64,000 nt of DNA from assembly GCA_030447685.1 (NCBI GenBank), contig JAUJOK010000004.1, forward strand, positions 1 through 64,000. Direction: 5' to 3'. The DNA comes from Armatimonadaceae bacterium (lineage in GTDB: Bacteria > Armatimonadota > Armatimonadia > Armatimonadales > Armatimonadaceae). The notes beneath the pieces are model-generated. The model saw only the letters and a program-made list of their open reading frames with translations. It was not told where the DNA came from and did not search any database. Made by a program: the position numbers and the translations under genes. Shown here one piece after another: positions 16,849-26,050 of the stretch (position 1 is its first letter; the number at the start of each line of letters is the position of its first letter).

Positions 16849-17532
16849 ATGCTCGACAATAACGATTTACTTTCTTCCGAGACGGTTGTCAATGCCGCCA
16901 TGAACCGTGGGCGTGGCCTGTCAGGCGTCAACTCCTATGAGCGGGAACTGCGAATGTCTATTTTGCCAATGCTGGAAGAACGGGTGCGAAGAACCGGTCA
17001 GGCCGTTTGGTATGATGCCTGCTGCGGCGAAGGCCGCGCCCTGCGGGAAGCGAGCGAACAGCTTGCGGCAACGGCTTCCAGGCGAAATATCCGCCTTGTC
17101 GGTGCGGACCTATGGGATGCGTTCCCGCCCGCTGCCGGTGAAAATCTGCGCTTTGTCGCTGCGGATGTAGTGAACTTTGATCCTGGCGTCCCTGTTGACC
17201 TGATTACCTGTGTTCATGGGCTGCACTACCTGGGCGATAAGCTTGGCTTTCTTGAAACAGCGTACGCACGGCTCGCGCCGGGCGGCATCTTTGTCGGGCA
17301 TCTGGACACGACTAATCTGCGTGCCAAAGACGACGCGAGTATCTGGCCTGCGCTGATGCGCCGCATTCGCGTCCAGGGCATACTCGTCCGCTACAGCAGT
17401 CACCTGCTCCGGCTGGAACGAAACGACGCGGTGTTGGATTTCGGAGTGGCCTATCAGGGCGCGACGGTGTCCGCGCAGGCGAACTATTCAGGAATGATCG
17501 GGGTCGATTCCTGGTATGCTCTGACACGTTGA
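16849..17532 (+). CDS. Class I SAM-dependent methyltransferase
   Basis: 227 residues. The AdoMet-binding motif I is VWYDACCGEGRALREA (residues ~52-66), with an acidic residue after strand 2 at LVGADLWD and motif post-II VPVDLITCVHGLHYLGD. LAPGGIFVGHLD is the usual motif III region. The substrate is not evident. ATG 16849 has a GAAGGGAAAGATAGG leader; the frame starts earlier at 16762 but overlaps the divergent uvrC start. It is transcribed away from uvrC. Confidence 0.82.
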   Translation: MLDNNDLLSSETVVNAAMNRGRGLSGVNSYERELRMSILPMLEERVRRTGQAVWYDACCGEGRALREASEQLAATASRRNIRLVGADLWDAFPPAAGENLRFVAADVVNFDPGVPVDLITCVHGLHYLGDKLGFLETAYARLAPGGIFVGHLDTTNLRAKDDASIWPALMRRIRVQGILVRYSSHLLRLERNDAVLDFGVAYQGATVSAQANYSGMIGVDSWYALTR

Positions 17533-17629
17533 TGGCCTACTGTCTTCGCAATAATAGGCAACCTGGGTAATAATAAAGCGTTTGATGCCGGACTACCGGC
17601 AAATTCAAAACAGGAAAAGGACAATCCCG

Positions 17630-18007
17630 ATGAAAAACGGATTTCCGTGGGGCGCTCTGGCCGTGACCGCCACAGTCGGCGCGGGCGCGCTGCTTATCGG
17701 TTGCACGCAGCAGGCAGCGGAGACGCCCCCGACCCAGACGCAGTCGTCCACAGCGGCGGCGAATCTGAAGACTGTCGTATTGAATGTCGAGGGCATGACC
17801 TGAGGAAGCTGTGTGGCCTCCGTGAAAGAGGTCCTCGCAAAAGTGGACGGCGTTTCCGAAGTCGCTACCGACATTCCGACAAAAGAGGCGAGAATCTCGT
17901 TTGATCCCGCCAAAACGGAACCGGAGAAACTGGCGAAGATACTGACAGACCATGAGGGCGAACATGATTTCACGGCCACCGTGAAAGAGGCCCCCTCAGC
18001 CTCCTAA
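17630..18007 (+). CDS. HMA-domain lipoprotein, predicted selenoprotein (in-frame TGA at codon 58)
   Basis: A 125-residue heavy-metal-associated (MerP/copper-chaperone-like) protein. The N-terminus MKNGFPWGALAVTATVGAGALLIGC is a lipoprotein signal with lipobox LIGC, Cys at residue 25, so it should be anchored in the envelope. The HMA fold begins at LKTVVLNVEGMT and the metal motif reads GMT-TGA-GSC, where family members have GMTCxxC. The TGA (17801-17803) is in frame with both halves and the downstream half is fully HMA-like (VKEVLAKVDGVSEVATDIPTKEARI). A SECIS-like hairpin follows the TGA. I therefore read codon 58 as selenocysteine, forming a U-x-x-C site. No selA, selB or selC lies in the window. 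ATG 17630 has AAGGACA upstream. Confidence 0.82.
17801..17833 (+). promoter_or_regulatory. Bacterial SECIS-like element downstream of the in-frame TGA
   Basis: Starting 11 bases after the TGA, GGCCTC (17815-17820) pairs with GAGGTC (17828-17833) through six pairs including one G-U, closing the loop CGTGAAA. The loop has G as its second base and lies 18 bases from the TGA. Both properties fit the rules published for bacterial SECIS elements (G within the first two loop positions, loop about 16-37 bases from the Sec codon). Confidence 0.72.
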
Positions 18008-18026
18008 TAGGCCCGCATGAATCCAC

Positions 18027-18053
18027 CCCTTCCCCCTTATCACGGGGGAAGGG
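18027..18053. terminator. Convergent hairpin after the HMA gene
   Basis: A ten-pair stem, CCCTTCCCCC with its complement, around a seven-base loop. It separates the plus-strand HMA gene from the minus-strand ATP-grasp gene and probably serves both. There is no T-run on the plus side, so efficiency is uncertain. Confidence 0.55.
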
Positions 18054-18078
18054 CAAGTGCGTTATGTATACGGTTTGC

Positions 18079-24818: not shown

Positions 24819-25444
24819 TTATATCCGCGCGAAGTTGTCGAGAATATGCAGGCCGACAGCGCCGCTTTTTTCCGGGTGAAACTGGACGCCGTAGATGTTT
24901 TCCCGCGCCACCGCCGAGCAGTAGGGCGCGATGAACTCGGTTTCGGCGGCCACAGCCATGGAAGCGTCGGGGCGGCAGTAGTAGGAGTGGACGAAATAGA
25001 CCATCGCCTCGTTTTCCAGCCCGGCAAAAAGCGGCGTGGGCGTGGGAAAGCGAAGCGCGTTCCAGCCGATCTGCGGCACCTTTACCCCCGCGCCGCCGGT
25101 CCCAGATTCCGCTCATCGAAGCGCAGCACGCGGCCCGGAATGAGGTTCAGGCCGCGATGACAGCCCATCTCCTCGCTTTGCGAAAACAAAAGCTGCATGC
25201 CGACGCAGATACCCAGAAAAGGCCGCCCGGAGTGCGCCGCCTCCAGCGTCACCCTTTCCAGCCCCGACGCCCGCAGCGTGTCAATCGCCGCCCCGAACGC
25301 GCCGACACCGGGCAGCACCACCTTTTTCGGCGTCCCGTATTCGCGCCGGGTCGCTGGTCACCTGGGCGTCGTGCCCCCGGCGGCAAACGCCTTCTGCACC
25401 GAGCGCAGATTGCCGACGCCATAGTCGATAATCGCTATCGACAT
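24819..25444 (-). pseudogene. hisH: Imidazole glycerol phosphate synthase glutaminase subunit, with three apparent single-base indels
   Basis: The glutaminase that feeds ammonia to HisF. Family-like sequence is read across three frames: [20 protein letters not shown] from ATG 25444 (AAGGGAG upstream), then [16 protein letters not shown] and VVLPGVGAFGAAIDTL, the nucleophile motif LGICVGMQLLFSQSEEMGC, and VPQIGWNAL...QFHPEKSG with the catalytic His and Glu. The shifts are near 25378 (one base missing), 25325-25329 (five A where four fit) and 25090 (one base missing). Every segment is conserved, so I think the gene is functional and the indels are sequence errors. Confidence 0.8.
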
Positions 25445-25445
25445 C

Positions 25446-26050
25446 TCACAGAACTCCCTTGGTGGAGGGTACGCCGCCGACACGCGGATCAAGGCGCGTG
25501 GCCGCATCGAGCGCGCGCCCGAACGCCTTGAATGCCGCCTCGGCGATATGGTGGGCGTTGCGCCCGGCGATCTGGCGCAGGTGCAGCGTGATTCCGGCAT
25601 TCGCGGCGACGGCCCGGAAAACTCCTCGACCAGTTCGGTGGCGAACGTGCCGATGCGGTAGTCGGTGAACTGGAAGTCGGCGTATAGCCCGCCGCGCCCT
25701 GAAAAATCCAGCGCGCACAGCACCAGCGCCTCGTCCATCGGGATCGTCGCCGCACCGTAGCGCACCATGCCCGCCTTATCGCCCACTACCTCCGCCAGCG
25801 CCTGCCCCAGCACGATACCCACATCCTCGACCGTATGGTGATCGTCCACCCAAATCGCCGGTGCAGCGCACGTTCAGCGCGAGCAGGCCGTGCCGGGCGA
25901 TATGGGTGAGCATGTGGTCGAAAACCCCGACGCCGGTAACGAGGTCGGAGGAGCCGTCACCGTCCAGATCGAGGCGCAGAGTGATGTCGGTTTCGGCAGT
26001 CCGACGGATAATCTCGACGGTGCGATGGGTTGCAATGGCGCAGCTTCCAT
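25446..26050 (-). pseudogene. hisB: Imidazoleglycerol-phosphate dehydratase, with three apparent single-base indels
   Basis: Converts imidazole glycerol phosphate to imidazole acetol phosphate. Recognisable parts in order: [59 protein letters not shown] with the metal-binding His-His-x-x-Glu, [24 protein letters not shown], and [19 protein letters not shown] with the second HHxxE site. The frame changes near 26035, 25860 and 25625. All metal ligands remain, so real loss of function is unlikely. Proposed start ATG 26050 sits directly after a good promoter, implying a leaderless message. Confidence 0.8.

Follow-up and report, generated by a model that had tools for sequence, protein, structure and literature searches.

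A predicted selenoprotein in an Armatimonadota genome: a putative HMA lipoprotein gene with an in-frame TGA at the first ligand of its metal motif

A gene at positions 17630-18007 (forward strand) of the 64,000-nucleotide stretch analysed here (the window; JAUJOK010000004.1, positions 1 to 64,000, from assembly GCA_030447685.1 of Armatimonadaceae bacterium, an Armatimonadota MAG) raises the question of whether a TGA within its reading frame ends translation or is read as selenocysteine (Sec). The frame runs from ATG 17630 to TAA at 18005-18007 over 125 codons and is unbroken but for this single TGA at codon 58 (17801-17803), which occupies the first Cys position of the metal motif GMT-C-x-x-C and gives GMT-U-GS-C. 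The second ligand, Cys61 (TGT, 17810-17812), is retained and is invariant in both homologue alignments. The original prediction of an in-frame TGA as the first Cys codon of GMTCxxC, with the second Cys kept, an unbroken frame to a stop at 18007 and HMA-like sequence beyond the TGA, was thus accurate. Judged from the evidence below, the gene very likely encodes a genuine 125-residue bacterial selenoprotein with Sec at residue 58.

With the TGA read as Cys, the product has a hydrophobic leader joined by a low-complexity linker to a complete HMA domain spanning residues 47-120 (17768-17989; beta-alpha-beta-beta-alpha-beta). The Pfam HMA profile PF00403 matches with 61.2 bits against a gathering threshold of 24.8 (E 1.2e-16, profile positions 1-58 of 62). 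AlphaFold2 returned a confident HMA domain (block mean pLDDT 91-95 over residues 51-120), while the leader and linker were modelled with low confidence. Among solved structures the best match was 1osd, the Ralstonia metallidurans MerP, at 40% identity and with a TM-score over the target of 0.90; on plasmids, merP genes matched best (42-45% identity). The fold, as modelled, is MerP-like. A signal peptide with a lipobox, LLIG-C (Cys25), was recognized by eye at 17630-17704. Of the six close homologues, five have leaders of similar type with G-C or A-C, the one with Cys at the Sec position among them; G181 shows no clear one. The product is plausibly a lipoprotein, LLIG-C25 being its predicted lipobox.

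Flanked by a methyltransferase gene upstream and a converging ATP-grasp gene downstream, the gene stands by itself. Ahead of the start lies a purine-rich, Shine-Dalgarno-like stretch (CAGGAAAAGGACA, 17610-17622), with the ribosome-binding-type AGGAAAAGGA about 10 bases 5' of ATG 17630. A weak sigma-70-like promoter match (TTCGCA-18-AATAAT, 17545-17574), found by consensus only and expected 0.3 times by chance, sits in the 97-base gap 3' of the methyltransferase gene. Beyond the stop codon is a strong hairpin (CCCTTCCCCC...GGGGGAAGGG, 18022-18060; -22.5 kcal/mol) that has no T run and was not called as a terminator in terminator/promoter prediction; it may mark where the transcripts of both converging genes end. 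No metal-resistance or mer genes were found beside the gene in the window, where the neighbours are uvrC, the methyltransferase, the ATP-grasp protein and an ABC transporter.

Decoding of UGA as Sec requires dedicated machinery, and the original prediction had named selA, selB, selD and the tRNA-Sec gene as the genes to look for. All are present in the host genome (5.0 Mb, 116 contigs, 88% complete), which appears to belong to a soil-type bacterium. The tRNA-Sec scored 67 bits and has the anticodon TCA (Rfam match L001); when the four best Rfam tRNA-Sec matches in this genome were typed, the other three proved to be Ser-tRNAs. SelB was matched with 349 bits and SelD with 379 bits, the selD gene having an in-frame TGA of its own and a SECIS-like hairpin (loop GUC) 17 nt after it. 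Three apparent one-base losses break SelA (326 bits) into pieces in different frames; they are located in a TCCCC run, in an AAAAA run and near the C-terminal end (locus L173, contig C85, 47,095-48,343). Because protein similarity runs on across each break, these frameshifts are likely assembly errors. The combination of tRNA-Sec, SelA, SelB and SelD that serves as the criterion for bacterial selenoproteins is therefore found in this genome, with SelA bearing the three apparent assembly frameshifts. Across the phylum, SelB scored above its curated cut-off in about half of the Armatimonadota genomes searched (141 of 291).

To follow the TGA in relatives, the 291 genomes were searched with the window protein and its ortholog from G003 as a query pair; in an accompanying contig pattern scan keyed to Cys codons at the Sec position, TGA forms were reachable only through the leader pattern. 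G003 (AVDCRST_MAG63, an uncultured Armatimonadetes bacterium, CADCTO010000284.1) belongs to the same family as the host and was assembled independently. Its ortholog shares 58% identity, extending over leader, linker and tail, and its TGA falls at the same codon. Four genomes of another family (G158, G179, G180 and G181) encode small HMA proteins with GMT-U-x-x-C and TGA at that codon, and the Sec-capable relative G134 has GMT-C-GS-C, with Cys at the Sec position. Because their identity to the window protein is 29-40%, these five proteins are called homologues, not proven orthologues. The alignment of homologues proposed in the original prediction thus finds either TGA or Cys at the Sec position in relatives. 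In total, TGA at the identical codon is found in six Armatimonadota genomes from five genera and two families, all of which have SelB above the cut-off and a strong tRNA-Sec (66-78 bits). On these alignments, TGA at one codon in independent genomes, together with a frame conserved downstream, is beyond chance.

Other matches from the searches fell away: L032 has no HMA motif as translated, the TGA codons of L053 and L055 lie outside the metal motif, and in a 75-residue match in G292 the sole TGA is the true stop. In the distant genomes the UxxC HMA gene is directly preceded by an M42 glutamyl aminopeptidase gene (four of four; L168, L169, L170 and L171).

The conserved TGA bears directly on the possibility that the codon is a sequencing or assembly error, the true codon being TGC or TGT and the product an ordinary Cys-type HMA lipoprotein. 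The assembly does contain apparent errors, since selA has its three one-base losses and contig C58 holds a near-copy, frameshifted, of another HMA gene, but these are losses of single bases and not substitutions. Since such an error would also have to explain TGA at the same codon in the independently assembled G003 and in four more genomes, this account is very improbable.

The original prediction had further described a hairpin that starts 11 bases after the TGA and carries a seven-base loop, with G as its second base, 18 bases away. This geometry was reproduced: the predicted SECIS upper hairpin, GGCCUC[CGUGAAA]GAGGUC (17815-17833), begins at 17815 after 11 bases, and the loop CGUGAAA (17821-17827) leaves 17 nt between itself and the UGA. 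Published rules for bacterial SECIS elements specify a loop of 3-9 nt, a stem of 4-16 bp, a spacing of 16-37 nt, a minimum free energy of -7.5 or below and a G as the first or second base of the loop (PMC13188914). The window hairpin, which folds at -12.3, agrees with them as had been predicted, although 12-20% of synonymous recodings of the window sequence alone give a hairpin as strong. By itself the hairpin is modest and within chance.

Comparison with relatives adds to this picture. The G003 hairpin, CGCCUC[CGUGAAA]GAGGCG, differs by one pair changed on both sides and by one G-U replaced by G-C, these two close sequences being too few for SECIS covariation statistics. A hairpin at a shared position in both genes is expected by chance in 1.2% of cases if the codons are treated as independent and in 11% if the shared codons are held fixed. 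In the distant homologues a far clearer hairpin lies 32 nt beyond the UGA; its GGUC loop, which the window hairpin lacks, resembles that of E. coli, and two examples are CCAUCUU[GGUC]AAGAUGG and CCACUCU[GGUC]AGAGUGG. The chance of such a hairpin is about 2% for three of the four genomes and 23% for G181, and the GGUC-loop hairpin of the nearest relatives is lost in the Cys form of G134. The 17-nt spacing between UGA and loop is common to the window gene, the host selD and E. coli fdhF, for which the sequence was checked and the loop position is well established.

The modest hairpin is one of two observations that would fit a TGA acting as a true stop, with the gene decayed or its 3' part translated alone; the other is a 64-residue open reading frame that begins at GTG 17813. 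A product initiated at this GTG would, however, be without strand 1 and the metal loop. Over the 62 codons downstream of the TGA, comparison of the window gene with that of G003 gave a dN of 0.29 against a dS of 1.9, so that translation and purifying selection very probably extend beyond the TGA. This selection, the retained second Cys, the lack of any further disruption over the 125 codons and the occurrence of TGA or Cys in homologues at exactly this ligand position all argue against a true stop, which we consider quite improbable.

Reading of UGA as Trp, Cys or Gly, through a variant code or a suppressor, has nothing in its favour except the in-frame TGA itself. TGA is an ordinary stop elsewhere in the window, for example at the end of the upstream methyltransferase gene (17530-17532), and the Sec machinery is present. 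Moreover, the in-frame TGA codons of the window gene, of selD and of a second HMA gene of the host with a UxxU motif all fall at ligand or catalytic Cys positions, making this explanation extremely improbable.

Sec insertion at the TGA is thus the reading that we carry forward. Against it count the modest hairpin, the frameshifted selA, the lack of an adjoining metal-resistance gene, the missing clear lipobox of G181 and the case of G038, described below, where a TGA-containing HMA protein of another subfamily occurs in a genome that yielded neither SelB above the cut-off nor a strong tRNA-Sec.

The original prediction had noted, correctly, that HMA-type selenoproteins were already on record, and had suggested that a lipid-anchored one might be new. 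None of the curated NCBIfam cut-offs is reached by the window protein. Its best match is NF041115, a UxxU metal-binding (seleno)protein reviewed in PMC13188914 (58.9 bits, E 4e-16; cut-off 95), which likewise has an HMA-like domain and Sec as the first CxxC ligand but contains two Sec residues, whereas the second ligand of the window protein is Cys (TGT 17810). NF045683, a MerT/CopZ fusion-like heavy metal transport selenoprotein, also has an HMA domain but is fused to a MerT-like membrane region; here the window protein scored 52.7 bits and the cut-off is 375. A cation-transporting ATPase E1-E2 selenoprotein shares the UxxC motif (ABB15669.1; PMC13188914), there as a domain of a membrane pump and here in a predicted free-standing lipoprotein. 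MerP (TIGR02052; 1osd, 1afi) has the same fold, is exported and bears the GMTCxxC loop, but it is a Cys-Cys protein, free in the periplasm and encoded in mer operons, in contrast to the Sec-Cys window protein with its predicted lipid anchor and no mer genes nearby (51.4 bits against 92.55). The copper chaperones CopZ and Atx1 (NF033795, TIGR00003) consist of a single HMA domain too, but are cytosolic Cys-Cys proteins without a leader (51.1 against 91). A MerP selenoprotein was also counted, without details, in the GOS survey (PMC2398784). Together with an ATPase-like protein of G069 and an HMA protein of G581, both described below, NF041115, NF045683, the UxxC P-type ATPase and the GOS MerP make up a repeated record of Sec at HMA metal sites. 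What is new, within the databases and openly readable literature searched, is the stand-alone single-Sec (UxxC) MerP-like form with a putative lipid anchor at LLIG-C25.

Several other HMA selenoprotein candidates were encountered. The second one in the host (L047, 4854-5516, minus strand; contig C23, about 24,853-25,515) joins an unknown N-terminal domain to an HMA domain and has the motif GMS-U-PVG-U-P with two TGA codons, which precede a GGUC-loop hairpin by 35 and 23 nt; a MerR-family regulator gene lies 90 bases downstream, and relatives with UPxG[U/C] occur in G003, G024 and G051. The near-identical, frameshifted copy of this UxxU gene on contig C58 (L048, 4078-4287, minus strand) reflects either strain variation or a fault in the assembly. 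In G038, a MerT-HMA fusion with GMT-U-PVG-C (L031, 1114-1776, contig C165) belongs to a subfamily other than that of the window protein. A genome search of G038 (88% complete) gave no SelB above the cut-off and no strong tRNA-Sec; either the machinery was missed in this incomplete genome or TGA is not Sec there. A P-type ATPase-like protein of G069 (L054, contig C382) has an N-terminal HMA domain with GMTUSSC, like the known UxxC ATPase selenoprotein. Two genomes from the phylum of Luteitalea (L089) also have HMA proteins of this kind: G581, which has SelB and tRNA-Sec, with GMT-U-AG-C (L182, contig C120), and G586 with GMT-U-NA-U (L196, contig C416).

We infer that UGA at codon 58 would be decoded as Sec by SelB and tRNA-Sec, aided by the hairpin 17 nt downstream, and that the small lipoprotein would be exported and lipid-anchored, presenting one MerP/Atx1-like HMA domain. 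Replacing the first Cys by Sec would supply a selenolate, deprotonated at neutral pH and a tight binder of soft metals. In the loop that leads into helix 1, the Sec58 selenolate and the Cys61 thiolate could then form a site for such metals, which would capture Hg(II), Cu(I) or another ion of this type at the envelope and hold it or pass it on, as MerP does in the periplasm. Because a Sec selenolate is known to bind soft metals tightly, soft-metal capture at the envelope is judged the likeliest role, and is probable.

Its main rival accepts the selenoprotein but gives it a redox role, with UxxC acting as a selenenylsulfide/thiol switch and not in metal capture. The cell envelope is oxidising, and prokaryotic selenoproteins are mostly thiol-based oxidoreductases (PMC9312934). 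The HMA fold and the GMTUxxC loop, however, belong to metal chaperones and not to thioredoxin-like enzymes, and the second HMA selenoprotein gene of the host lies close to that of a MerR-family regulator. A mainly redox role is unlikely, and metal capture remains the preferred reading.

Known selenoproteins mostly use Sec for redox catalysis, while Sec as a metal ligand has been proposed and hardly tested. The roles in metal detoxification still need to be studied further, according to PMC13188914. A single-domain protein of 125 residues, with a known fold, one Sec and a natural Cys homologue in G134, offers a simple system in which to measure what selenium contributes to soft-metal binding. 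No selenoprotein survey of Armatimonadota was found in the literature searched, judged by title, and the group is worth examining, with SelB in 141 of the 291 genomes searched. It is conceivable, though somewhat doubtful, that stand-alone lipid-anchored UxxC HMA proteins form a distinct Armatimonadota subfamily with far higher soft-metal affinity than MerP, and that together with the UxxU protein, encoded next to a MerR-type regulator gene in the host genome, they constitute a selenium-based metal defence. If the Sec reading is true, the protein would hold mercury, copper and similar metals more tightly.
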